Part shown: positions 11,868-57,671 of the stretch, one piece after another | Position numbering within the stretch: position 1 is the first letter of the stretch | Layout: every line of letters begins with the position of its first letter | Source: Brachionus manjavacas | Taxonomy: Eukaryota; Rotifera; Eurotatoria; Ploima; Brachionidae | Direction: 5' to 3' | NCBI GenBank assembly: GCA_019054805.1 | Contig: JAHQIY010000004.1 | Coordinates: 4,464,001 to 4,528,000, forward strand | DNA length: 64,000 nt | Program-made: the position numbers and the translations under genes | Notes under the pieces: model-generated | What the model was told of the DNA's origin: nothing | Database searches by the model: none | Seen by the model: only the letters and a program-made list of their open reading frames with translations

Positions 11868-14800
11868 TCATTTTTTAACCTGATTTAAAAAATTTTCGGT
11901 TTGGTTTAAATCATTTTTCTCATTTTTTATTGAGTATTCTAAAAATTTAGGCTGATCTTTTTGATCTTTCGAAGCTATTCTCATTATAAAAAATAACAAC
12001 CACAATGGCACTGTTGTAATAGTGGCAACAGCTATTAGCGGAAGAAGTGCATAATCAGAATCAGGAGATTCAAAATTCAACATTATTATGAGAAATGCAA
12101 TACTAACATTCTGCAAACCAGTTTCAATTGAAATCGTATATATTTGCTAAAAACAAATAAACTTGTTTTGAAAAATTTAATAAACCTTGAGAAATTTACT
12201 TTGGTGGGACGCTTAGCAAGCCATGCTAACACGGCGCCGATGACAAATCCTGTCCAAGGAATTAGAGGACCCGTGATCCATTGTTGCCACGTAATTAATT
12301 TAAAAACGTAGAATTTTGAGACCAAATTTAAAAAAATAAAACTGAAGATCATGAATCCAATTATTTTTTTTGCATACTTCATTAAAATTTTTTTCATCTT
12401 CGGAAATTTTCGAGCCAATATCAAACCCAATAAACATGGAATAATTGTCAAAAGAAGATTCAAAATCAGCTTAAAAAATGGAATTTTGATTTCGGCTTTG
12501 ATATAGATTCTTTTGCCGAGCGTGTAAAACCACAATGGCATCATAACTTTACCAAAAATAAAATTTAAAACCTGGAATTTTTGGGACTTGTCAATTTTCC
12601 ATGGACAAACAATGAGATATAACTATTATAAAAAATTTTCAAGAAATACTTCATTTACAGTCTTCTCCTTTTTGTAATTTTGGTTATTTTTATCAATATA
12701 TTAAAAATTAAACAGGGTCCGATTAGAGAACTACTAATTAATTAAAATCCTAAATTAAATTATCAAAAAGTATAAAAAAGAACCATGGATAGACAATGAG
12801 ATCAAACTTTTAAAAAATCATTTTCCTTTCTTTACTTTTTGTACTTTTTCAGAATATTATTTTATTTGGCCCTGTTCCTTTTTGTACTTTCTGTACTTTT
12901 TGTACTTTTTCAGAATATTATTTTATTTGGCCCTGTTTCTGTGATTAATGATAATTTTAATAATTTTATTAAAACTTAAACGGGGTCCGGGGTGGAGCCC
13001 TGGTTTAGGGATTCGGGTTTGCTGAAGGTAAGAAAAATATTAGTTAAATATTAATAAAAGGTTTTTTTATTACCATTAAGAACCAAAAGTACAAAAAGTA
13101 CAGAAAGTACAAAAAGGAACAGGGCCAAATAAATAAAATAATATTCTGAAAAAGTACAAAAAGTAAAGAAAGTACAAAAAGGAACAGGGCCAAATAAAAT
13201 AATATTTTGAAAAAGTACAAAAAGTAAAGAAAGTACAAAAAGGAACAGGGCCAAATAAAATAATATTCTGAAAAAGTACAAAAAGTACAGAAAGTACAAA
13301 AAGGAACAGGGCCAAATAAAATAATATTCTGAAAAAGTACAAAAAGTAAAGAAAGTAAAAAAAGGAACAGGGCCAAATAAAATAATATTCTGAAAAAGTA
13401 CAAAAAGGAACAGGGCCAAATAAAATAATATTCTGAAAAAGTACAAAAAGTAAAGAAAGTACAAAAAGGAACAGGGCCAAATAAAATAATATTCTGAAAA
13501 AGTACAGAAAGGATTTTTATTTTTAAATATTTTCATTGTCTATACCTCAAAAGAACTGGACAATAATTAAAATTACCATTAAGTACAAAAAATACAAAAA
13601 GGATTTATCTCAATGAAAAGTGACCACAATTTATCATATTAAAGATTTAATAATATTTGGTTACAAAGATGCGTAACCATTATTGGTCATCTATTTAAAA
13701 AATTTAAATTATCTAATAAGATTAAAAACAAAGAAATGATAGTCTGAAAAAATCTGAACAATGCCTAATGAAAATTTTTATTTTTTACCTTGCCTGGATG
13801 ATTTTCTGTTAAATTTATTAATTCAAAATGGAGCTTGGAATTGGAGCTTTTTAAACTCTGGAGCTTTTTAAAAATTGATTCGTAAAATTTTAAATAATCT
13901 TTAATTCAATTAATTGGAAAAAAAGTTAAGGAGGATAATAAGTTGTTTTTTTCTGGTATCATATCCTTGCTTCAAAAATAAGTACAAAAAAATGGACAAA
14001 TTGACAAGACCGAATTTGTTAACGTACCTATACTGGACATTGTCGAGACGAAAGTCAAGATAGCCGATAAATCAATGTCTCCATTAAATATAATCGTCCA
14101 ATTATTTGAACTAACTCCACCGGGAGAACAACCTGAAATAATTTTTTTACACCAAATACTCTTACAAAATTAGAGAATTAATTTACCGTAAATAAAGAGC
14201 GCTAATGCTTCTATCGGCTTCAGGTTAAATATGTTTATAAATGCATAAGTTAACTTTACAATATATTTAATAATTAAAATTTTTTTTTTTAATTCTTAAT
14301 TTACCAAAGGCATGAACAAATATTGAGCTACTAAGCCGATCAATACTGGAACCGGTATTTTAATGATTTGAATAAGTGATTCCAAGTCCAGCAAGATTCC
14401 CATTATAACAGATACCAAAACTGACACAAAACTAATGTAGAGTATTTGAAAAATATCTATAAAACGTTTTGGGCCTTTGACTACAATACTATGGACCTTT
14501 TTGGCTACAATGGAGCTGTTGTCGATCAGGTATTCAAACTCGAGTAAGGCTCTACCAACAAGCTTGGGTTTTATGTCCAACAGGTACAATTTTTTGTTAG
14601 AAGAAACAAATTTCATAAATTTTGAACAATGTTTTGGCTTAGTATCGTTTATTGAACATTTTTTAATTGATTTGTACTCAAAAATTTTCGATTTGTCCGA
14701 CTTCATGTTGGAAAAAGTGATTAGGTAATTCGATGTTATTTTTACATAGCAGTGTTTTTGGTACATTTTGCACTCGGTTTTGTTTTCGATTCGGAGGGAA

Positions 14801-41811: not shown

Positions 41812-44174
41812 TCACTTGATTTGTTTGATTTTAGAATTATTTGAAATTTTTTTAAAGATAAATCTTACTTTAAGACCAAGCCAACTGGCTGCCATAGAAC
41901 CCAATATCAAAATTATGACCACACAACATATCAACATGATTATTTTTTTCTAATTAAAAAAATTAATTTAAATCAAAATAACATTTAAATTTTTTATATA
42001 ACTTGCAACAATAAGTACAACATTCAGTCATCATACATTTCATTTAAAGTCAAAGAGTACTAGAAGGAAACACTTTGAATTAATATTTGATTAAAAGTGA
42101 CACAAATCAGATCCTACAAACATATAAACAACAAAACTATAACATTTAATTATAGAATAACTAACCCTTCTTGCTTCTCGCTGGAATTTTACTGCTTTTT
42201 TGGTATCTTGATTAGCTGTAAGTATAAAGTCAACTGACTGTTGTATATTAAACTCAATTCGATCTATCATTTCACCCTGTTGAAAAAAAAAATTGAGAAA
42301 AAATTATCTAAGTTATTGATTGGGACGTACCTGAGACTCGACCAGCATTGCCATGTCCATGAACATGTCGTGTAACTCTTTAATACTTTGCTCTAATTTT
42401 AAAATATCTTTATGACGAGCTTCGATATCAGCTAGAGTTTGCTTGGCTACTTTGGTTTCCATTAAAATCTTGGTAAAAAATTATTAAAAATGAAATTTTG
42501 GATTGAGGCGAAATTATACTCCTTCGGTGAAAATTTGCGGATTGCCGGATTCCAACATTCGCTCAATTTCTTCTTCATCTGTTTTTTTGCCGGCTAGAAT
42601 TTAAAAAAAAAAATTAAAATTAAACAAATAGAGATGGAATTATTTAATTAATAACTATTTTTTAAGATGAAGCCAAGAAAAGGTGAAAAAGAAAACACCA
42701 AATAGGGATAAAACATTGACCAGAAGCATAAGTAAGTGACTTACTGATTTCGAGCTGACGCTGTATTCTGGCCTTACAGCGTTCTCTGTAATCGATTTGG
42801 GCGTTATTATAGTCATTCATAACTTCGATAAATTTTCGAGATAGTGTGGAATGCTGAAATTTTGTTAGTTTAAAATTAAAAATGTTTATTTTCTAGTTTA
42901 ATACTTAACACTAGAAGACCCGAGAAGTTTTTTAGACTTCTTTTGACCATTAAAAATTAAATATAAGTAAACCGAGCAAAAATTTTTGCAAAATTTTTTT
43001 GGTCGCCTAATTTATTTTCAAAAATGAAATTTAAATTTTTTAAAGAATTTATATTGTCAATAATTTTTTTTTACGGTTCAACAGCTTCTGAATTTTGAAA
43101 GACCTCATAAACTTGATCAAGATGATCTACTGCAGTAACTTAAGCCATTTCAGATAATGGAGCCACTTGAGATACTTGAGCTCTTATAGAAAAGTTTTGA
43201 TGAAGGGTCTTTTCATTTTTTCTCTCGTCGAGGCCGAGTAACCAATTACCTTGGATAAAGATTTGTTATGCTTTAATAAAAAAAATATGCGATAAAGAAA
43301 AAAATTAAAATATTCTTAACTTTTTATTCATTATGCGATGGTTTAATTTTTTATGCTATAACATTATTTTTTATGCGTCAAAACCCCTCATCCATAATCA
43401 AAAACCATTAAAAAAATCAACATTAAGACCTGAGAAGTTTTCTTACTTTTGCAGTTAATTTTTCTTTTGGGTAAGCAATTTTGGATCAATTTGTACCAAT
43501 TCTGAATTTTTGTTTAATAAAATAGTTCTACATGATTAAAATGTCCAAAAGAAAATCTTAGCCATTAACCTAAAAACCTCCTTTTTCATTTTAATTTAAC
43601 AAAGAAGTTTTTAAGCTTCTCGGGTCTTTTTTAAAAATTAGTTCTTCTAGTGTAAAATCAAATCAGAAAAATAAATAAAAGTTTATTTTTTTTTAAATTC
43701 GTTTACCTGAGTTTTTCTTATTCTCAAATCAGCCGATTGTCTCGAAGAGTCAGACTCTTCCTGTTCTATGTGGGACTCCATAGCTAGATTTAAATTTGAG
43801 GAGTATTTTTTTTTCTAGATCTACTTAAAATTAGATTACTTTTTAGCTTTTGTCTAACTTTTTGAGCTGTCTTCTTTATTTCGGCCATTCTATCTTCTAG
43901 TTCGTCTTTAATTTTATCGTCGGTTGTCGGTGCCGCCAAAATTGTACTATGAAGCTTTTTAACTTCGTTTACATATTTATGGATGCTTTCTACATTGCTA
44001 CGAATATCTTCTACTTGATTGAAAAACTCTTCCATAAAGACAGACTGGTCCATATTGACATGAACCTCGTCGTCGTCGTTTTCATCTTGAGCCTGTGGTA
44101 AAAAATTAAAAACCTTTTTTAGCTATGTTCAAGTGACAAACCGCTTTGAGAGCCGCTAATCGATCTTTTGTCAT
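41812..44174 (-). CDS. stxC: syntaxin-1-like Qa-SNARE
   Basis: Eight exons on the minus strand (44174-44142, 44092-43840, 43783-43707, 42853-42745, 42593-42520, 42468-42331, 42276-42166, 41949-41812) join in frame into 310 residues. The first exon encodes the MTKDRL-type N-peptide that binds Munc18 in known syntaxin-1. Exon 2 opens with an acidic run and helices Ha/Hb; exon 4 is Hc, ending RQLEI in the linker. Exons 6-7 form the SNARE motif, with the central-layer glutamine at 228 at the exon border (ESQ|GEMID). The last exon is a membrane anchor ([17 protein letters not shown]) close to that of vertebrate syntaxin-1. The 19 residues after LGLK are odd: a GTAAGA donor directly follows LGLK, so a further exon might replace them. 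Expected role: target-membrane SNARE in exocytosis. Intron 3 carries an inserted TIR element. Confidence 0.9.
42908..43653. mobile_element. TIR element in intron 3 of stxC
   Basis: It begins ACACTAGAAGACCCGAGAAG and ends with the inverted words CTTCTCGGGTC and CTTCTAGTGT. The terminal inverted repeats match over about 35 bases with a gap in the right arm. A related internal word (GACCTGAGAAG) is at 43427. On the minus strand, about 43085-43260 is coding-like with one stop ([16 protein letters not shown] and [13 protein letters not shown]), possibly a transposase remnant. Superfamily unresolved; no target duplication seen. Confidence 0.65.
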
Positions 44175-45021: not shown

Positions 45022-45111
45022 TTAATTCGATGAATTGGGTACAGCAATTGCGAATATTAGCATTAATATAATAACAATAAAACTCAGTATCAAAATTATT
45101 TGCATTTTTCG
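45022..45111 (-). CDS. stxB terminal exon, anchor form 3
   Basis: 90 bp from a ATTTAG acceptor to TAA, encoding RKMQIILIL, a membrane helix and the end AVPNSSN. AATAAA signals follow on the minus strand near 44910. Confidence 0.75.
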   Translation of the reverse strand, partial: RKMQIILILSFIVIILMLIFAIAVPNSSN

Positions 45112-48100
45112 CTAAATTTGTACAACATTTGAAAAAAATTCATTAATAAATAATTCATTCTCAAAAACATCTCCGGTTTAAATGAAATTTTCAAAAGAAA
45201 AATTATATACAGGATGAAATAGAAGAACTTTTTAATGCATCTGGACCCATTTTAATTTGTCTTATTACTTTTAGTATTATTCGTATTATTTGTATTATTA
45301 TTTGTTTGTGGCTTTGGCAGGTAGAGATATAGCAATAATGCCAATATGGATACGAGTAAAACTATGACAGCAATCACAATTATGATGATGATTATTTTTT
45401 TCTTTAAAAAAAAGAAATTCCTGATTGAAATGATATACAATTTTTTAAATTTTAAATATGCATTAAATGTTAAAAAATCGTATCAATATTAAAATAACTT
45501 AGAGTTTAATCTTAGAAAGATGTCTCGATACAATTATAAACTAAACTAAATAATCAATTAAATTATTTACTAAAAAAACAATTTTTTTATTGATACGATT
45601 TCGAAAAGGCAAAAAGCGTGTTAAGTGAAAAGTGCGATAGGTAAGAAAGTACATTTTTTTCCAAAAAGCTTATAAAAATTCTAAATTTCAAACAATTTAT
45701 TAATAAAGATTGATTCAATTGAAAATAAAATTATTTAATTAAAAAAAAAGGCATCAGTGTTCCTTCTGGCTATTATAAAATATCTTGGTCTAACCGGTCT
45801 TAATTATTTAAAAAAAATAAAAAAATATGATTTTATAAATTTTTAAAATTCATTTTGAATTTAAACATTTAAATTGAAATCATTGTTGATGACTTCAGAA
45901 ATTTTTTACTTTTAATGCAACTACTTTTTTGGTATAGACAACGCGATTATTATTCCTATTACCAACAATACTACCACCACAATTATTATGATATAAATTC
46001 TTTTCTAAAAAAAAATTATTGAAATTAGATTTTCCTGAATATTTCGATTCAAAATAGCATGATTCTTCAAATTTCATTCATCTATTCTGATTTAAATTTT
46101 CAATTTCCAAAAAACAGATCTTTTCTTTGAGCGCTATCTAATTTTTAAGCTAATATCTTCTTTAAAATACTGATGAAAAGTTTCAATTTTTAGAAACTCT
46201 CAGCTAAAAAATTTTAATTTTTACTCATTTAAAGTCTTTTTTTCTTATTAAAATTAAAAAGAAAATTCCAATTCCACAAAATTTGAATAAAATACTTAAT
46301 TTTTCTTTAATTAGTTTACGTTTTTTAAGTATAAGTGTCAATAGGTTTAAAATGTTGGATTTCTTTTAAATTTAGTGTAAACTAATGTATTTATGTAAAA
46401 TCTTAACAAGTGGAGAATTTTATTTGATATTTGGGGAAAAAAATAAAATTCGGGATAAAATTCGGGAAAAAAATAATATTCAAATTTTGTGATATCGATT
46501 TTAATCGTCCAAAATAATAATCGTCCAATTTTTTTTATATTGTTTTTAATTACTTATTTACATTAATTAAATAAAAATCAATTTTTAAAGAATAAAAAAA
46601 AATGGGCTCTATTTAAAAATATTATTTTTTTTAATATTTTTTAAATCAGCAGAGTTTCAGTTTGGGGTAAATTTTATAGCAGAAAAATTTTTTGGCGGAT
46701 TAAACATAAATATTATAAAACTGCTCGAAAAATCTCATTTTTTTTTCTAAAATTAAACTGATTTATCAAAAATTTTAACTTGGAGAAACTAAATTTAAAT
46801 AATACCACTTTTCTGCAAAATAACTAAGTCACTTTCACCTATTCATAATGGGTTGGTAATCTGAGAAATAAAAAAAAAATTCTCGCAAAATACTACTAAG
46901 TTGAAGACAAATTGTTACAAAATGATACCGATTCATCATTTTCCTTCAGTGAAATTATTAAAATGATTCTTAATTTTTTTGACTCAAATGAAAAACTTAA
47001 AAGTCTTCGAGTCGGTATAATTACAATTCTTTATTAAACCTAATTAATTTATAATTAAATAATTAAAAAATTATAAAATCTTGTCCATTTTATTTTTAAT
47101 TGAATTTCACTTCTTTTAAAAATTCAAATTTTTTTGTATTTCTTTATGATAAAGAGCTTTTCAAAAATCAAAAAATTTGTGATTGTAACAAAATAATTCG
47201 GAGAAAATGTTAGACTTTTTTATTAAATTTTAAAAAATTAGATAGCATTAAAATAGAAGCTTTATTTTTACCATTAAAGAGTTTCAAATTAATAGAGCTC
47301 AAGTGAAAAGTCAGTAATTAGCAAGTCTGAAAATTAGTAAAATATCAGAATAGATGTTAGCTATGGAAAATTATAAGAAGCAAAAAAATTTTAAAAGCTT
47401 TTTAGTAAAATTAGTTAAGCATTTAATAAATCGTGCGCAAGCAAATTAATTTAATAGCAAAAATCAACGACAATTCAGCCAAAATTAAATTTGAACACCC
47501 AAGGCTAACTAAAAATTATCAAACCTAAACATGTCCTAATCAACTTACCCTTCTCGCCTCTCTTTGGTATTTTACTGCTTTTTTGGTGTCTGCATTTGCA
47601 GCTAGTACAAAATCAACCGACTGTTGAATATTATATTCTATACGATCTATCATTTCACCCTGATTAAGGTGAATTAAAGAGAGAGTAGAATTTATTTTTG
47701 AATCATCTATTTTTGATTCAGTCGAATATGCCTCTTAATTGTCGTTCTTTCTGCCATTTAAATTTTGAGTGAAATAGAGCCCAGAGTAACTAAGTGATTA
47801 GTAGAGCAGTTATTTGAGAGTGATTTGTGTAAAAGCTAAATTTAAAACAAATATTCTTACACGTCTAGCCGCTTTTTGGTAAATAACAGCTTGTTTAGTT
47901 TCGGTTTTGGCTTGTTCAACATACTCTGTAGCTTGGCCTATATTACGTTCTATATTGTCAATCATTTCACCCTAAGTTATCACAACAAGTATTATCTTAT
48001 TAAACATTTGTTCGACTTTTGCATTCGATTGAATCAAAATAGCTGTTATTTTTTTTAATAAAATTTATGAAAAAACACACCAAGTTTACTTTACAGGCAA

Positions 48101-51100
48101 TTTTTTTTTTTAATTCCTAAATCGAAAATTCATCAAAACTTCGTTTCTGAAATAATTTAGATTTAAACTTAAAAAGGCTTGAAATTGTTTTTTCACTAAA
48201 ATAAAATTACTATACACAATTTTTGGTAGCTTGAGATAAAAAAAAGATTGCTGAATTTCAACATAAAATTAGGATTACTTAATTATCTTTTTTTAAAATT
48301 AATATATTCTCAACAAAAACATTTTGAAAATTAAAATAAAATAAATTAAAAAGAAAAAATACAAAATCAAAAATACCTAATATTGTCTAATAAGTTTATT
48401 GAATCTAAATTTACATTTTATATCAATAATAAATTTACACTTACAGGCGTACAATAAAACTTTTTTTAAATGCACAATTATTTTGACATAAGAATTATTT
48501 CTAAAATTACAATAGAGCTTTTCAGCTAATTCTAGAATGTTGATATGGAAAGTGAATTCGATAGTAGTTTTTAAAAAAAATGGTCACTCATGACACTCAA
48601 GCAATAGCTCGAGTTTGTTAAAAATATAGACAAAAAAGAATGAAGAAGACGCTGAGTATATTTGGGTTTAGAAGCCATCTTCAACAATTATGACGAGGTT
48701 GTTGAGAACACAATAAAATTTATTAAACAATCAATTAATCAATGGGTAAATTTTTTTTTTGAAAAATCTTTTAGATTTAAATGTCCTGATTAAAAATATT
48801 TATAAATTATTTCTATTTCTTGATTTTTTCATGCTAAATAATTAATAAAAGTTTCTGCCTATTTTAGGGAATCTTTCCTTTTTTGTCCTTAAAAGAGCTT
48901 TAATTAATTTTTTTTCCTAGAAAAACAGATTTCTAGTACTAATTTCAATGATGAGTCCTAAAATTTGATTAATTTTTTTTAACTTTTTTACTTTAACCAT
49001 TATTAATTAAAATAAACCAAAAAAGGTGTGTCAGTCTTTAATTGTCTTCGGATTTTTGCGATTTCCTATTCCCATTACAAGAAATTTTTTCTAAATTTTA
49101 ATGAACTTTGATTATTTCAAGCGTTTATTTATCCAAGGAAATCAATTCTGATAATTTTTTAAATCATTAAAGAATAGCGGAAGTTTAATATTCAGACACA
49201 TTAAAGACAGTCAAATTATTAAAAAAGTTAAATTAATACAATTCATAGTAAATTTCTAAAGCATTTTTTATAATGAGAACACTTTGCACTTTTTTTTTAG
49301 TCTCAAAAAGTGCCTTAAGTGTCCATGCTTTGAATAAAACTACAATCGGATTCACTTTTCAAAATTAAGCATTTAAGAATTTGGTGAAAAAATTATATAA
49401 TAATTTTTTAAATAGAGTTTTTATTTGAAATAAGTTTTTTTTTAAAGTAATTTTTTATAAAAAGTAATTTGAAATTCATGAAGCGTTTTTATAAAGCAAA
49501 TTTAATTAATTAATTAAAAACAATTTCTAGCCATCTATACTTTTTCTAAATAAATTCAATTAAGAGCCCACAAAATAAAAGTCAATCGACTCTCCTCAAT
49601 AAAAAAGTATCAGGTAAAATTGGTGTTTTAATCAGAAATTTTAGTCAATAAAAATTAAAATGAACATATCAATCAAAATCTAAAAAAAAAGAAAAAAAAC
49701 AGTTATTCTACATACCTGAGACTCGACCAGCATTGCCATGTCCATGAACATGTCGTGTAACTCTTTAATACTTTGCTCTAATTTTAAAATATCTTTATGT
49801 CGAGCTTCGATATCAGCTAAAGTTTGTTTGGCATTTTGTGTTTCCATTAAAATCTAAAAAATTTATAATTTCATTAGTATCTAAAGTTTTTTTGTAAAAC
49901 CATATGAAGTTATTACTCCTTCGGTGAAAATTTGCGGATTGCCGGATTCCAACATTCGCTCAATTTCTTCTTCATCTGTTTTCTTACCGGCTGAAAAAAA
50001 ATGATTATTTTTATTCACAAATATTAAATTAACAACATGTAATTGTTTTATTTAGCATAAAAAAATTCCATTCACACCCGAAAGTCTATCTTAAAATAAT
50101 AAAATTACACAAAATCAGGGACTGTGAAATTTTTTTCAATTGATTGACTTAGTTTGATTCAAGAAAATCTTAATCTCTTTAAAAATAATTTAATAAATTA
50201 GTATAAATAATGAATGATCGGAAATCATTCCAAATAATATTGCAAATTTTTATTTATGGCATTTTATGTAATTTTTGTAAGCTTGTGTAAAATAGTGTAT
50301 AAATGGATATTTTCCTTTTATTTAACCACTTTTTATATTGGGAACCCAAATTTTAAAACCTAAAATAAAATATTTTAGAGAAAAAACTTCATAAAACAAT
50401 TCAAAAGGAAAGGTTCGCGCGTAGCAAAACGACAGCACTATCTTAATCGTGCTTAATCGTCTTGCACTATTTTAGAAATTGAACTATATTTTGACTTTTT
50501 TTTGGATTAATTAAGCCTTAAATAAAAAAAGTGAAACCTGAGATTTGTTCAGAATTTAGTCTAGTTTTATAATTTAAATAAAAAAGTTGGGGTCTTGGGT
50601 CAATCCTCCGACGAGAATCAAAAAAACTGGAAAAAAGCACAAAAAAATGTGTTTTTTTGGTTTAAAGTGCAACTTAATTCCACTTAAAATACTTGAAAAA
50701 TATACCATTTAATAGAGAATTTTGCGTCCTTTAAAAATATATATAGATATAGTAACTTTTGAATGAAAACTCATCTAGAAAATTTCAAAAATCTAAACCA
50801 CTGTTTTCAAAAACTATCAAACTTCAAGACCCTCTAGTCAAAAATCTTTTTTTTTCCCTCCCCTAAAGAAACAAGTTTTCATAGGTTTTCATATACGTAG
50901 ATTACGAAAATGCTATCGAAAATTGTCGATTAAGATAGTGCTGTCGTTTTGCTACGCGCGAACCTAACATTTAAAAAATAATATGGTTAAGATTTTTTCT
51001 CGAGAAAAAGATAAGATTAAATTTTTTTCTTGTTTAAAGTTATTTAAATGGCAAAACTAAGTTTGTTTTTTAATTTTTATGATGCGACTAAACAATAAGA

Positions 51101-52644
51101 GGACCAGCATTGTAAAGAACCTTTTCAATCTAATTAAAGAGTAAATATTTATCTTCTCTAAAAAAGCCTATTGAAATAACTGGAGATCACTAAAACGAGC
51201 TATTAATTTTGTTTGAATCGAACCATAATTTACATAAATTTTTAAATTTTTCAAAATAGGTCAAAATCAGCAATTGGATATTCTGATGGTAAAACAGCAA
51301 TTAAGACCAAATAAATTAGAAAAGAAATTATTTTAGAAGAGTTAAGAAGAGCAATTATCAACAGAAGCATTTTAAGAAACTCAATAAAATATATTTCAAG
51401 GGTCTAAAAATAAAGTTAAAGTTGTTTAAGGAAAAAAATGTTAAATCAAAATCCAGCTTCTGTCAAAATTCTGCGTATTCGTAATTTAATACTTTTGATA
51501 ATGTATGCACAATGCGGAAAAGTACAGAATCTGAATATTAATAAAACAAATTTGTTTTCACCTTAAACAGTTTAAACTTTAATTTTTCAATTTTCGGATG
51601 AGGATTTTATTAGCATTCTGCAAAACCCTTCTGCTCTTAATTTCACTTTTCCATCTACAAGCTCTAAAAACTATTTAAAATTTTTCAGTCAATTTACAAA
51701 CTTTTTAAGACACTAGATGTTAATATTAAATAAATTAGGAATAAAATCTAAAAACTAAAAAGATTGTGCATAAAAATCTATAAAATAAAAATAAAATAAG
51801 CACATGGAAAGCTTACTAATTTCGAGTTGACGTTGAATTCGGCTTTTACAGGCATCACGATGCTGAATTTGGACATTGTTATAAGAACCCATAATATCGG
51901 AGAATAAATATGACAAATAAGAAAACTAAAAATGACATTTAAAAAAAAATTAAAAATAAAAGCATTTATTTTGAACATCAAGATTAAACATTGACCAGAA
52001 GCACACTTGACTTACTGATTTCGAGCTGACGCTGTATTCTGGCCTTACAGCGTTCTCTGTAACCGATTTGGGCGTTATTATAGTCATTCATAACTTCGAT
52101 AAATTTTCGAGATAGTGTGGAATGCTGAAATTTTGTTTGTTCAAAATAAAATAGAAAAAACATTAAAATTACGAACCTGCATTTTTCTTATTCTAAAATC
52201 AGCATTATTAGTTTGTTTCATACTTTCCAAATTTAAAATAAAAGCTTCCATTTCTGTTTGGGTTTTTTTGTTGATTAGATTATTTTGACTTTTAATTTTT
52301 TTATTTTACCTTTGAGCTTCTGTCTAACTTGTTGTGCTGTTCTCTTTATTTCGAACATTCTGTCCTCCAACTCATTTTTTATTTTATCATCTGTTGTCGG
52401 GGCGGATAAAATTGTACTATGAAGTCGTTTCACTTCATCAACGTATTTGTGTGCATTTTCGATACTTGTACATATATCTTGAACTTGGTTGTAAAACTCT
52501 TCCATAAATGCAACTGGATACATATCTATTTGAACCATGTCATCATCAGTTGAATCCTGAGCCTTAATCGAAAAATTAGATTTGTTTTTTGGGTGATTTT
52601 TTTAAACGAACCGCTTTTAGGGCTGCTAATCGATCTTTAGTCAT
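45022..52644 (-). CDS. stxB: syntaxin-1-like Qa-SNARE with alternative exons
   Basis: Constant exons on the minus strand: 52644-52612 ([12 protein letters not shown]-peptide), 52562-52310 (acidic run, Ha/Hb), 52253-52177, 49990-49917 and 49853-49716 (SNARE first half, ending in central-layer glutamine 228). Between them lie alternative sets. Hc comes from 52124-52016 or 51925-51817. The SNARE second half comes from 47971-47861 or 47659-47549. The anchor comes from 46004-45921, 45401-45252 or 45111-45022. Every combination keeps frame if one exon per set is used, giving about 292, 314 or 294 residues. Habc, the RQLEI linker and the SNARE heptads are intact, so all forms look functional. The N-peptide and acidic start match Munc18-binding syntaxin-1. 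Intron phases equal those of stxC and stxA, which flank it. Exclusive use is inferred, not shown. An inverted-repeat element (50411-50965) sits in the intron before exon 5. Confidence 0.88.
45252..45401 (-). CDS. stxB terminal exon, anchor form 2 with Asn/Thr tail
   Basis: 150 bp from a TTTAAAG acceptor to TAA. KK plus an isoleucine-rich membrane helix, then LYLPKPQ and a tail of repeated N-N-T ending in N-K-T-N. The tail would face the vesicle lumen or cell exterior and has several N-x-T glycosylation sequons, unusual for a syntaxin. Confidence 0.75.
   Translation of the reverse strand, partial: KKIIIIIIVIAVIVLLVSILALLLYLYLPKPQTNNNTNNTNNTKSNKTN
45921..46004 (-). CDS. stxB terminal exon, anchor form 1
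   Basis: 84 bp from a TTTTTAG acceptor to TAG, encoding KRIYIII, a valine/isoleucine-rich membrane helix and a short IPKK end. Phase 0 entry fits exon 7a or 7b. Confidence 0.75.
   Translation of the reverse strand, partial: KRIYIIIIVVVVLLVIGIIIALSIPKK
47549..47659 (-). CDS. stxB exon 7b (SNARE second half, form b)
   Basis: 111 bp, phase 0 at both ends; encodes [20 protein letters not shown] and on to YQREARR. It is nearly the same as the single stxC exon 7 (42276-42166). Acceptor CAG, donor GTAAGT. Using both 7a and 7b would keep frame but add 37 residues to the SNARE helix. Confidence 0.88.
47861..47971 (-). CDS. stxB exon 7a (SNARE second half, form a)
   Basis: 111 bp, phase 0 at both ends; encodes [20 protein letters not shown] and on to YQKAARR, the heptads after the central glutamine. 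Acceptor AACTTAG, donor GTAAGAA. It differs from exon 7b at about half of its residues and resembles canonical syntaxin-1 in the EYVEQA segment. Confidence 0.85.
50411..50965. mobile_element. MITE-like element with 39-bp perfect terminal inverted repeats, in stxB intron
   Basis: The left end begins AGGTTCGCGCGTAGCAAAAC and the right end is its exact complement over 39 bases (50411-50449 and 50927-50965). The 477 bp between them have no sizeable coding frame. It lies in the 1.8-kb intron between exons 4b and 5 of stxB, where perfect arms indicate recent insertion. No clear target duplication; family not recognised. Confidence 0.9.
51817..51925 (-). CDS. stxB exon 4b (Hc helix, alternative form)
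   Basis: Also exactly 109 bp with the same phases. It encodes [17 protein letters not shown] and on to [11 protein letters not shown], aligning residue for residue with exon 4a without gaps. Acceptor TTTTTAG, donor GTAAGC. Only 90 bp separate it from 4a. Including both would add 218 nt and shift the frame, so mutually exclusive use is required for a full protein. The first half of the helix is most changed. Confidence 0.85.
52016..52124 (-). CDS. stxB exon 4a (Hc helix, form a)
   Basis: 109 bp, entering in phase 0 and leaving in phase 1; encodes [17 protein letters not shown] and on to RQLEI. It differs from the corresponding stxC exon (42853-42745) at a single base. Splice sites are TTTCAG and GTAAGT. 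It is the constitutive-looking form because it keeps the HSTLSRKF sequence common to other syntaxin-1 proteins. Confidence 0.9.
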
Positions 52645-53524
52645 TCTCCGATTCTATTTACACTTCAATCTTTTAATTCGATTAAAAAATAACTTTTATA
52701 AATTATCTAAAGTTTTGCGAATTAATTTTATTTTCATTATCAAAAGTAAAAATAAATTCATAAAAAATTTTATCCGATTTCTTGTTTTTCAACTGTAAAT
52801 ATTAATAAATGTACGAATAGCTTTGAAATTTATCATCAAAAATATTTTTTTCTTCAACTATAGCTAAACAAACTTAAAATTATATTTAATCTAGTCTAGG
52901 CCAAATTTCCTTATAAAAACAGTTGGATTGTTTCTTCAATGATAATTACGGTAAAAAAATTAGCAAAATATTTTTTTAAATTAAATTTAGATTGATAAAA
53001 ATTAAAATTGTTCTACAAAAAAAATAATAATCGATGATCTAGGTTTTCGATTTGGCGCTTTCGACGCGTTTCAATTAAATATCGAAAACAATTAATTTTT
53101 TTTTAATTTTAAAATAAAAACTAGGTTTTTATTTTAAAGTAATGTATTTAACAAATAGTTGAAGGAAGCAAATTAAGAATTTAAAAGGAAACAGACAAAC
53201 CAAGTATTTTCAAAATGGCTAATTTCATCGAACAGTTTACGTCATCGAATGTTGACGATTATTTTATTTGTTTCAAAAAATAAATTTTAATATTAAATAA
53301 TTTAACTTTATTCTTTTTCGTTGACAAAAAAAATTAAATAAAAAAATAAACAAAATTGGTCGAAATTGTTCGAGCCTCAATTTTTATTTTGCGAAGCAAG
53401 TTTTGGAACTGTCCGGATTCGGTCCATCAAGCAAAAACAAAGATAAAGCAAATTTGTAAAAGAAAATGCAGGTGCAAAAAAATCGAAAAATTGGCTTTGA
53501 GCAAGTTTAAGTAATGATTGGAGT

Positions 53525-56500
53525 TTATTTTGCATAAATTGCCAACAAAATAATTATTATTACTGCGATCACAACAACAGCGGCGATAATTAGTGCAATA
53601 AAAATAACTTTTTTCTAATAAAATAATTTAATTTTGTTTCAAACATGGTTAATAGCATTTTTTCATTCTAACTTGTATTAGTAGTGTTAAAATGAGCTTC
53701 AAGAAAGTTTATCCCCTACTTTTTGAGAATTAAAGATTTTTTTAAAAGAGCTTAAAAAAAACAAGCAGAAATTTTAATTTCTAGAGTATTAAATTATATC
53801 GCAAATGAAATTTAATAATCTAACATAACAATATTAATTTTAACAAAAACATTCATTCTTAGTTTTATACTATAAATAATGTCTATTAAATCTAAAAACC
53901 TATAAGTTCTTCTATTTCTGTAATTAACTACCATAGGCGACCTCCTAGTACGCCGCCTCAGCAAGCTTGCTTGCCATAGCTTTTATTATCATTGATTTTG
54001 ATTAATAATTTAATAATTTTATGGAAAATTTTCATAGAATTGAACATCTGAGAATTTTGCGATGTGAACACAATTACTTAAACTATTGTGGATTGATATG
54101 AAATTTAATTTTTCCTTAAAACGATTTAAAATTAATTTTAAAATCACAAAGAAAATGGTGTAATTTTTTTTTAAATTTTTCAAAAGTTCAACTTTATTTA
54201 AATTTGAGAGAAAATTTAAAATTGAGAATTCGATTATTCAAATAATGTACCACTTGATATAATTTAAATAAACATGTTAGTTTTAAATCGAATGCTTCTT
54301 AAAGGTGATTTGAATCATTTTGAGGGTTTCATTCTAATACAACAATAATTATTGCATCAATTGTTAAAGTTTGCTTATCACTTTCAAAATTTTTACCAAA
54401 AAACTTCTCTTTAAATTTGTTAAATCATAGTAAATTTTCAGAATTTCGAAGTCACAGATTAACTGTGTTGAATTTTTTATGGAATTCTTGCATTCTCATT
54501 TAAAACTATAATTTTTTAGAGTTGAAATAATTTTTTATTATAAAAATAAGACTCAGTAAATTTAAGACATAATTTTAAAAATCCTTATAATTTAGTTTTA
54601 TATGAGAGATTATTAAATAGCTTTATCATTAAAATTTCAGTCCTGAAGTTTCTAGAAGAGGTGTTTGCTGAAATAAGCATGTTGAAATGTGGAGGATAAA
54701 CTGTTGAATACTTACCTCGGTAAATTGTGTTAGTCAGCTATTAAAGTTAAGAAAATGAGCCTAAATCGTCAATGGTTTACCTTTCGAACTTTTTTGACAT
54801 GTTCAACTGCTTTTTTAGTTTCTTTTTTACCTGTTTCAGCTTGTTCTATAGTATTAGCCATATTGTTTTCAATATTATCGACCACTTCTCCCTTTTATTG
54901 AAAAAATTATTGATCAAAATTAAGACCTTGGAATTTTTTCCAAAAATCAAACTTGAGAATCCATCAATACGGCCAAGTCCTGGAACATTTCATGAAGTTC
55001 GAGAATGTTCTTCTCCAGTTTTTTAATGTCTTTATGCCTAGCTTCAATGTCTTTAAGTGCTTGCTTAGCTGCCATAGTCTCATTTATTATCTAAATTTGA
55101 AATAAAAATTAATTGAAATTTTACCTAACATTACTTATAAGCCTGAATTAAGCATAAATTAATGCAAGATTTAGACAAATATGTGACAATAAAAATTACT
55201 AACTCCTTGGGTAAATATTTGTGGATCTTCCGACTCTAGCATTTCATCAATTTCTTCATCGTCTGCATCTCTGCCAGCTTTTTTTTTAATTAGAGCTAAT
55301 TAAGACTTTTAATAGGCAAAACTACTTATTTCTAGTTGCCTTTTAATGCGTGTTTTGCAATCATCTCTATACTTTGCTTGGATTAGATTGTAATTTTGCA
55401 TCAAGTTCGAGAATTTCTTTGACAAATATTCGGTCTTAAAAGGTAACTTTATTGAAATTCAAAGATATTAAGCTAGAATGATATTATTCCTCAATTTAAA
55501 GTGACATTTTAATAGTTGAAATATTTGTTTCAAAAGACAATTTATTTTCACGAAAAAGAACGGAATAATAGAGAGCAAATTTAGATCAGGAAAAAAAAAA
55601 TTACTTGTGTTTTTTTAAGCTTTAGATCGGCCGATGCACGATTTGATTCTTTTTGCTCATTAACTATTTCATCACTCATTTCTAAAAAATTCAAATTAAT
55701 AAATAATTTAAAAAACCCGAAAAAATAACGGTTGACTTGAAATATATATGAGTCCAAAATTTTAATTGAGAAAATTTTTTATAAAATTTAGCTATAAAAA
55801 AATTTTACTTTTACTAATTCATAACAATTTTTCATCGTCGTTTGGCGTTAATTGAAATAAATAAATAAATAAAAAAATTAGGAATTGTCATTTTTTCCGG
55901 TCATTTAGACCTGATGGAGTAATCAAGTAACTTAAGCTAAAAAATATTCAGCAATAAAATATTAATAAATAAATATTTTTTTATATTTTCCGATAAAATA
56001 TGTGATTAAATCGAAATAAGCTAAAGAATGAAATATTAGGATGATGCATTTAAGAGAAATCGTCAAAAAATCAAAAAAAAGTCTGTTTCCAGAATATTTA
56101 ATTCAAAAACTAAGAATTTTTAATTGAAGAAACTTAAAGCTCATTTATTTTAAAGTTATTGGCATCCAAACAATGATAAAAAAATGATTTCAAATTTATA
56201 TTCTTTTAAAAGTTTTAATTTAGCTTATCTTCCATTTATTAAATTTTAGTCAAAAATTAAAAACTTAGCTTTTATCCCAGCTGTCAAGTTTTATTCTAAA
56301 TTTTTATTTAATTCTAATTATTTTTTGGCTAAATTTAATTTATGGAAGATAAACTAGATTTAATGTAATTTCCAAAATAGAATAAAATCTTTTTTAAAAA
56401 CATGGATGAGAATAACTCCAAAAGAAATGGATCTCAAATTTTAAGTTAAGAGTTTATGGTAATTGTTATCGTTATTTAAATTACCTCTTATTTATCAGAA

Positions 56501-57671
56501 AATATATTTTATTTTTAAATCGGCATTGGGAATTTTGGTACCAAAAAAAATTTTAAAGATGCCAAAATTTAAATTCTGACGGGCTAAAATTTGTTCTGTA
56601 AATTGTGTCAACTAATACACCCTCTGTACCGCCAATATTCTGATTCTGCATTCTTGTATTTCTTTTTTCGTTTCTTTTTTTCTCAAAATTTCCTATGCCA
56701 AAAAATTTTAATCATTTTTATTTCTTTAATTACTGTAATTTGGTGAATTAAAAAATTATCTTCATTCCCATGGTGGATAAAATAAAAAAATTGTTCAACA
56801 AAAGGGGGATTTTAATATCAAATCATTAGAAAGTCCTTAAAAATCTAAAAAAAGAAAAAATTTTGGCTTATTATTTTTCATGTATTAGTTAATTCTTGAA
56901 AACTAATATCTTAAGTATACAAAGTTATCGGGGAATCAGCATTTTGATAAATTGAAATGAGAAAGTCCCTCTAACTTTTTTGAGACTTTTAAAAAAATTA
57001 AACTACTAAGAGCTTCGAATCGACTTTTTGAGCTGAGTGGAAGATAAGTCAGGACAGGACTGGGTCATTTTGTTCCATTAGTTGTCAGATTGGTGCATGA
57101 ATGCAGAACACGCTTTAAATCAAGATTTTTTAAGCACTCATCTCTTTTGAGTAATTGCTCCCTTACTTTAAGCTTTTTTAATGTAATTTTTTTGTTTTTA
57201 ATTCTAAAAGATGTAGAAGCAAATAAAAAAAAGTCGACCAATTTTCTCAATTGAAATTGACTGATTATTAAATAATAAGCTACTTTTTAGATTTTGTTTA
57301 ATTTTGATCGCATTGGATTTAATTTCATTCATTCGTTCTTCTAGTTGACTTCCAAGAGCTTAAATAGAAATTTGCATTAATTTTAAGCATTGCAGAATGG
57401 GAAATTGCTCACTGTTGTCGGTAGATGGGGATACCAGAATTTTTTCATGCAACCTTTTTATTTCTTCAACGACCAAACCCATTTGGTCAATGTTTCGCTC
57501 CAATTTTTTGGCCTCTTGTAAAAATGCGTCCGTTTGACTCGGCTTAACCGGAATCATTTGCAAGTCGGTCTCTGTCTGCATCTTTATAAAAAAAAAAATT
57601 TTCATCAATTTCATTTTTTCATTCTACTCAAAAATTACTGCTTTAAGTTCTTTTAAACGATCTTTAGTCAT
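53525..57671 (-). CDS. stxA: syntaxin-1-like Qa-SNARE
   Basis: Nine exons on the minus strand (57671-57639, 57581-57413, 57358-57284, 55681-55605, 55434-55326, 55277-55204, 55090-54953, 54891-54781, 53614-53525) join in frame into 291 residues, against 288 in human syntaxin-1A. It has the [10 protein letters not shown]-peptide and Habc helices ([32 protein letters not shown] in the linker). The SNARE motif has its central glutamine at 225 ([12 protein letters not shown]). The anchor is [15 protein letters not shown], ending AIYAK. Exons 5-8 have the same sizes (109, 74, 138, 111) as in stxB/stxC, but the sequence is much more diverged, and the Ha/Hb part is split into two exons. The acidic run after the N-peptide is missing, which may alter Munc18 binding. 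Most diverged member of the cluster; expected Qa-SNARE of exocytosis or a related route. Confidence 0.88.
53927..54000 (+). repeat. Dispersed repeat R3, copy 2
   Basis: CTACCATAGGCGACCTCCTA followed by AGCAAGCTTGCTTGCCATAG and a TTATTATCATT tail. It is the inverse-orientation relative of 16437-16500 and lies in the last intron of stxA. Confidence 0.6.
55831..55875 (+). repeat. Dispersed repeat R1, copy in stxA intron 3
   Basis: CATCGTCGTTTGGCGTTAAT followed by TGAAATAAATAAATAAATAA. Shares the TTGGCGT core and AAAT tail with 19607-19655 and 6481-6520. Confidence 0.5.

Follow-up and report, generated by a model that had tools for sequence, protein, structure and literature searches.

A tandem pair of probably alternative exons for the C-terminal SNARE half of a rotifer syntaxin of the syntaxin-1 type

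We found that a syntaxin gene of the rotifer Brachionus manjavacas carries the second half of its SNARE motif twice. The two versions are encoded by neighbouring exons, 7a and 7b, of the gene stxB, which lies in the 64,000-nucleotide stretch analysed here (the window; positions 4,464,001 to 4,528,000 of contig JAHQIY010000004.1, GC content 25.5%). Sequence comparison shows that the exon pair is real and conserved, and it looks functional. We consider it likely that this syntaxin-1-type gene uses 7a and 7b, products of a tandem duplication, in a mutually exclusive manner that tunes the control of release.

Three syntaxin genes are arranged in tandem on the minus strand: stxC (~57.6-53.5 kb), stxB (52.64-45.02 kb) and stxA (44.17-41.81 kb). 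Our model of stxB comprises exons 1, 2, 3, 4a/4b, 5, 6, 7a/7b and 8a/8b/8c, with AG/GT at all internal junctions. Internal stops are absent from the four stxB isoforms and the one stxA model that we translated. The features, in window coordinates, are as follows.

52612-52644, minus strand: stxB exon 1 with the start codon (gene model)
52310-52562, minus strand: stxB exon 2, N-terminal three-helix region (gene model)
52177-52253, minus strand: stxB exon 3 (gene model)
52016-52124, minus strand: stxB exon 4a, 109 bp, differing from stxA exon 4 at 1/109 nt
51817-51925, minus strand: stxB exon 4b, alternative to 4a, 109 bp, same phase as 4a; the same type occurs in relatives
49917-49990, minus strand: stxB exon 5 (gene model)
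49716-49853, minus strand: stxB exon 6, first half of the SNARE motif, ending on the layer-0 glutamine (gene model)
47981-47988, minus strand: TTGTTGTG, a CELF/UNC-75-type motif and candidate regulator site, 10-17 nt upstream of the 7a acceptor
47861-47971, minus strand: stxB exon 7a, SNARE layers +1 to +8, DNIE type, 111 bp, AG/GT, phase 0
47549-47659, minus strand: stxB exon 7b, SNARE layers +1 to +8, DRIE type (syntaxin-1-like), 111 bp, AG/GT, phase 0
45921-46004, minus strand: stxB anchor exon 8a, stop included, without Cys
45252-45401, minus strand: stxB anchor exon 8b, stop included, without Cys
45022-45111, minus strand: stxB anchor exon 8c, stop included, without Cys
42166-42276, minus strand: sole exon 7 of stxA, 7b type, 32/37 residues identical to 7b
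41812-41949, minus strand: stxA anchor exon, Cys-Cys, syntaxin-1-like (gene model, anchor scan)

stxB bears the marks of a syntaxin-1-type Qa-SNARE: exon 6 closes with MLVESQ, its last residue being the layer-0 glutamine, and layers +1 to +8 follow in both 7a and 7b. A C-terminal membrane anchor is supplied by 8a, 8b or 8c, and in stxA by its own anchor exon. Since exon 6 ends on the layer-0 glutamine, exon 7 codes for layers +1 to +8 plus the linker. The original prediction of two 111-bp exons, phase 0 at both ends, holding alternative versions of the helix directly after that glutamine was borne out: each exon is bounded by AG upstream and GT downstream, and both encode syntaxin residues 227-263, agreeing at 21 of 37 positions and differing at 16. 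The 5' splice site of 7b reads AGG/gtaagt. In either exon the coding frame is the sole open one among the three frames of the minus strand. Joined to anchor 8a, 7a or 7b completes a syntaxin of 292 amino acids. Inclusion of both would, as foreseen, add 37 residues in frame (329 amino acids by computed translation), moving the anchor 37 residues further from layer 0 and throwing the layers out of register by 2 positions in 7; skipping both also keeps the frame (255 amino acids). Exclusion at exon 7 must therefore arise in splicing itself. RNA pairing between the introns flanking 7a and 7b gave no clear signal, with 26, 5 and 16 of 60 shuffles equally low.

Several comparisons led us to reject chance open reading frames. 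Across all 37 residues, 7a and 7b match rat syntaxin-1A from solved structures (E = 6.3e-8 and 1e-11, respectively), and both exceed the Pfam SNARE (PF05739) cut-off of 26.8 bits, at 43.9 bits for 7a and 38.7 bits for 7b. Searching the whole 114-Mb, 61-contig genome with 7b (E <= 0.001) returned three places: 7b, 7a and stxA exon 7.

Introns of 1744 and 1544 nt flank the 7a/7b block, and one of 1826 nt follows 4a/4b; introns 1, 2, 3 and 5 of stxB are short (49-63 nt). In stxA, a 54-nt intron 6 lies ahead of the sole exon 7 and intron 3 spans 853 nt, so long introns are not special to alternative exons. The two genes are nearly identical over exon 4/4a (1/109 nt differing), exon 5 (2/72) and exon 6 (8/138), covering 42331-42853 and 49716-52124, and diverged over exon 2 (69/253), exon 3 (36/75) and exon 7 (20/111). 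This pattern is suggestive of patchwork homogenisation. By eye, the short introns between exons 5 and 6 of stxA and stxB are unlike. stxC (~53500-57578) is a third, diverged syntaxin gene, with a weak exon 2 match at 57285-57578 and exon 7 layers V-I-M-T-A-G-T-A.

We then turned to exon use in relatives, drawing on two protein searches (best 120 of 3628 and best 120 of 3190 matches) that, with a later region search, yielded 155 proteins. Among the best 120 of 3628, the two top-scoring matches were long gene models from a mite (65%) and a mosquito (57%) in which domains are repeated; the named record with the highest identity was Brachionus calyciflorus at 76%, a cDNA filed under barley (77%) aside. 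On a by-eye reading of these 120, all but P0069 carried both the SNARE domain (PF05739) and the syntaxin N-terminal domain (PF00804). Thirty-seven rotifer-like proteins were chosen by eye, namely those most like the query, those of Brachionus and the barley-labelled cDNA, leaving out the bdelloid rows P0037, P0072, P0121 and P0122. A single exon 7 was present in 33 of the 37 (27 7a and 6 7b, as typed by residue 232, which places the divergent P0128, P0129, P0134, P0137 and P0139 with 7a and not, as identity would, with 7b); four had none or were cut there, and none had both. Thirty of the 37 come from contigs of only 976-1909 bases, one of which fits 300 residues into 994 bases; unspliced stxB or stxA would be too long for any of them. 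From contig size, we infer that these represent spliced RNA. The remainder are P0010, P0016, P0128, P0129, P0137 and P0139 (contigs of 3.1-40 kb) and P0069 (no contig).

Either exon occurs on the same protein body. P0014 (7a) matches P0009/P0018 (7b) at every one of the first 94 residues and of the 71 preceding exon 7, and departs from them in exon 7. The same 94 + 71 residues are identical, with different exons 7, between P0024/P0025/P0026 (7a, with two anchors) and P0027 (7b), and between P0123 (7b) and P0126 (7a-like). They are likewise identical between the B. calyciflorus gene models P0010 (7a) and P0016 (7b), whose contigs each measure 32,780 and are presumably one. Alternative splicing inside the SNARE motif, as originally predicted, is thus supported in relatives by three transcript-like sets and one gene-model pair. 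In these comparisons 'same gene' rests on protein identity. Tandem genes kept alike by homogenisation, or chimeras made in transcript assembly, could produce the same picture, and stxA and stxB do have nearly identical exons 4-6.

Other forms were seen in the same searches. P0069 (UniRef F2E834, labelled Hordeum vulgare) is a rotifer-like syntaxin cDNA in which exon 6 is joined directly to the anchor without exon 7, probably a library contamination and a natural exon-7-skipped form. P0124 and P0125, also rotifer-like, break off just past exon 6 in residues that look intronic; they may reflect a retained intron 6, which would yield a soluble syntaxin lacking the C-terminal SNARE half. In two bdelloid gene models, P0121 and P0122 (Rotaria, Adineta), a pair of syntaxin copies in tandem seems to be fused. 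None of the four bdelloid rows showed an exon closely resembling the monogonont 7a, and the region search for 7a-like exons returned eight proteins (seven known from the earlier searches and the fragment P0155) and no vertebrate sequence.

The pair appears to be old. Window 7a is identical to B. calyciflorus 7a (P0010) at 32/37 residues and window 7b to its counterpart (P0016) at 33/37. We built a 37-column exon-7 tree from 43 rows: 27 of the 37 rotifer-like rows, three window exons and 13 others. With two long rows (o_Diaph2 and a_P0126) left out, 7a formed one clade (support 99/95; 100% of 200 bootstrap trees) and 7b one group with weaker support (63/0); with all 43 rows, the 7a exons did not group as a single clade and needed two changes. 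The single 7a clade of the reduced tree therefore points to a pair that is old and kept, and 7a and 7b both look to predate the split of these rotifers.

The differences between the exons are distributed unevenly over the helix. With layer positions assigned after the neuronal SNARE structure, layers +1 to +8 read I-I-I-A-V-A-T-A in 7a and I-I-I-S-V-A-T-A in 7b. Seven of the eight are identical, +4 being Ala or Ser. Fifteen of the 16 differences fall on surface positions, and 14 of the 29 surface positions agree.

We compared these surface changes with the STX1A and STX2 residues given in PMC10957171. 7b agrees with STX1A at residues 232, 235 and 250 (R, Y, D), where 7a agrees with STX2 (N, R, E); at 248, 7a carries the STX2 lysine. 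Residues 231, 238, 246 and 249 do not follow the STX1A/STX2 pattern, and 7a keeps D231. Sites differing between STX1A and STX2 coincide with those differing between 7a and 7b at 7/8 (hypergeometric on surface sites, 0.022), a weak overlap because variable sites coincide anyway. Among 23 distinct 7a and five distinct 7b rotifer exons, E250 occurs in 17/23 7a against D250 in 5/5 7b, and E245 in 21/23 against 0/5. K248 is found in 17/23 7a and also in 2/5 7b, R235 in only 9/23 7a, and N232/R232 is the typing residue itself.

According to PMC10957171, swapping the C-terminal SNARE half-helix between mouse STX1A and STX2 alters vesicle clamping, and surface residues of this half affect both clamping and priming, the layers of the two proteins being conserved. 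Spontaneous release frequency went up in all point mutants reported there, not significantly for E238V and V248K, and the pool was lowered only by D231N together with R232N. We propose that the splice fork directly after the layer-0 glutamine would give each mRNA one of two C-terminal SNARE halves. Because the core is preserved, both isoforms would be expected to zipper up with one and the same SNAP-25 and synaptobrevin. What would be switched is the exterior of the helix, presenting Arg232, Tyr235 and Asp250 from 7b, or Asn232, Arg235, Lys248 and Glu250 from 7a. Carrying the mouse data over to the rotifer, 7b may give a clamped form that resembles syntaxin-1 and serves regulated (neuronal) release, and 7a a less clamped form, similar to syntaxin-2/3A, for constitutive or non-neuronal secretion. 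Together, the three slots (4a/4b, 7a/7b, 8a/8b/8c) could produce up to 12 proteins.

The exons were originally predicted to alter zippering itself, and hence partner choice or fusion force. This is a quite unlikely account and fits the sequence less well than a switched surface. The exons do sit in the last-zipping half of the helix, layer +4 changes between Ser and Ala, a review of STX3B treats partner choice as possible for 3A/3B (PMC11476516), and the mouse authors do not exclude surface-residue effects on complex stability (PMC10957171). However, we set the core-partner model aside because seven of the eight layers agree. The A240S change was left out of the mouse tests because it is found in STX1B, which is functionally redundant with STX1A (PMC10957171). 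The genome holds at least one SNAP-25 family match (one found), so partner choice on the SNAP-25 side looks limited.

Two further readings concern the locus. stxA, whose one exon 7 is of the 7b type and which alone shows a Cys-Cys anchor in a scan of 41.0-47.5 kb, might have taken over the neuronal form, leaving one stxB exon as a relic and stxB in practice with 7a and 8a-8c; the pairing of 7a with other-type anchors in 24/24 rows agrees with this. We regard it as unlikely. Exon 7b appears still constrained because its splice sites and frame are intact and it differs from stxA exon 7 at 13 synonymous against 5 non-synonymous codons. It is very improbable that the assembly joined exons of two gene copies, 7a or 7b stemming from a separate or pseudogene copy, even with three tandem syntaxin genes sharing near-identical patches. 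Upstream there is a single exon 6, downstream a single anchor set, and 201 nt of intron part 7a from 7b, which also makes 7a unlikely to belong to a separate transcription unit, the case named as refuting the original prediction. B. calyciflorus has models of both types on contigs of equal size, and genome searches with 7b and the SNARE family brought up no further 7a copy.

Exon 7 is one of three alternative slots in stxB. Exons 4a and 4b are a second pair of equal length; using both leads to a stop at codon 173, using neither to a stop at codon 148. The check suggested with the original prediction was whether exon 7 choice correlates with 4a/4b and with the anchor. In relatives, 7a is found alongside either exon 4, as is 7b. 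For the anchor there is a bias and not a rule in the 30 of 37 rotifer-like rows forming the anchor table (the other seven lack a complete anchor): the syntaxin-1-like anchor accompanies 7b in 3/5 rows and 7a in 0/24 (Fisher 0.0027, with rows that are related and not independent). P0009 and P0018 (7b) have syntaxin-1-like anchors and P0048 and P0123 (7b) the other type, while one 7a form takes two different anchors (P0024/P0025, which differ only slightly, versus P0026). Within 41.0-47.5 kb, the scan placed the Cys-Cys anchor in stxA only and found no syntaxin-1-like anchor in stxB. In mouse, the Cys of this syntaxin anchor is palmitoylated and STX3A is described as being without it (PMC9183232). 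We considered whether the absence of Cys from the anchor marks 7a, as it does in the window, and rejected this, as 7/24 7a anchors in relatives have a Cys within the first 20 residues.

A candidate for regulation of the pair lies just ahead of 7a. The published UNC-75 motif is UGUUGUG, which TTGTTGTG fits, and UNC-75 controls the choice between anchor exons 8a and 8b of C. elegans unc-64 (PMC4946901). In neurons, a CELF/UNC-75 protein might mask the 7a acceptor and so direct splicing to 7b, a proposal that we view as rather doubtful. The site's position 10-17 nt from the acceptor fits this, as do CELF-like genome matches (three strong, one with an internal stop). However, the window contains four such motifs on both strands against 2.64 expected, and for this reason we count the site as no more than a lead; it was also picked post hoc, and there is no orthologous intron for a conservation comparison. 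In unc-64, moreover, UNC-75 promotes an exon, so that the direction of effect at 7a is not given.

Among known systems, the pair is most likely close in kind to vertebrate STX3A/3B. There too the fork falls right after layer 0, a common N-terminal part is followed by an alternative C-terminal SNARE half and anchor, and one form (3B; here 7b) is nearer to syntaxin 1A (PMC11476516, PMC9183232). As described in those sources, 3A and 3B differ in exons 9 and 10, and the minor 3C differs from 3B in one exon; rotifer relatives, in contrast, pair one 7a with two anchors, exon 4 offers a further choice and the paralogue stxA holds one form only. Exon 5 of SNAP-25a/b is also a tandemly duplicated, mutually exclusive exon of a neuronal SNARE with few changes (9/39; PMC2581893), whereas the rotifer gene is a syntaxin, its exons differ at 16/37 and the SNAP-25 family match of this genome lies elsewhere. 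C. elegans unc-64 is likewise an invertebrate syntaxin with alternative anchor exons, 8a/8b, under CELF/UNC-75 control, but only the anchor is described as changing there (PMC4946901). The mouse chimeras swap the same half-helix artificially, with differences coinciding with those of 7b/7a at 232, 235 and 250 (PMC10957171), although STX1A and STX2 are separate genes. Searches of the open-licence literature, judged by titles and abstracts, showed the unc-64 anchors and no exon-7 pair in invertebrate syntaxins. As far as searched, the host group, the combination with two further slots and the clean core/surface split are new.

Similar arrangements exist outside rotifers. Among 44 named rows of the 155 proteins, mostly gene predictions, the exon 7 slot is alternative in Lineus (X2/X5/X6 versus X4/X7/X8), Diaphorina, Amphibalanus and Oppiella; the exon 4 slot in the nemertean Lineus (X5) and in X2 of two scallops; and the anchors in several species. 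Gene models of Diaphorina and Amphibalanus include two exon-7 units in tandem, which counts against strict exclusion, double inclusion being in frame. The second exon 7 reads DNIE in Diaphorina and DQVL in Amphibalanus, and both versions in Oppiella and Lineus are DR. With no consistent 7a signature across these four, common ancestry of all animal exon-7 pairs is unsupported as such, and repeated duplication is indicated instead. Tentatively, and with more doubt than confidence, we suggest that animal syntaxin-1 genes are modular, with slots 4, 7 and 8 repeatedly made alternative. The exon after layer 0 would have been duplicated in rotifers, insects, barnacles, mites, nemerteans and vertebrate STX3, or been alternative already in a common ancestor, with vertebrate STX1 and STX2 each keeping one version. 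If true, the choice between clamped and unclamped fusion in animals would be coded by splicing, on a single conserved zipper.

A constant core with a spliced surface would separate the zipper role from the clamp role, which are hard to part by mutation. Rotifers offer natural, conserved pairs for the half-helix that mouse work reached by artificial chimeras. The pair suggests that release control can be diversified through exon choice rather than gene duplication, and stxA, with its 7b-type exon alone and its Cys-Cys anchor, may show the step from a splice form to a separate gene.

Two minor features of the window complete the survey. The stxB intron between 4b and 5 contains a 46-nt inverted repeat (50404-50449 and 50927-50972), its arms 93% complementary and separated by 477 nt, which may be a small mobile element. 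At 13044-13539, simple-repeat open reading frames (EYYFIWPCSFLYFLYFLYF..) leave three frames open on one strand.
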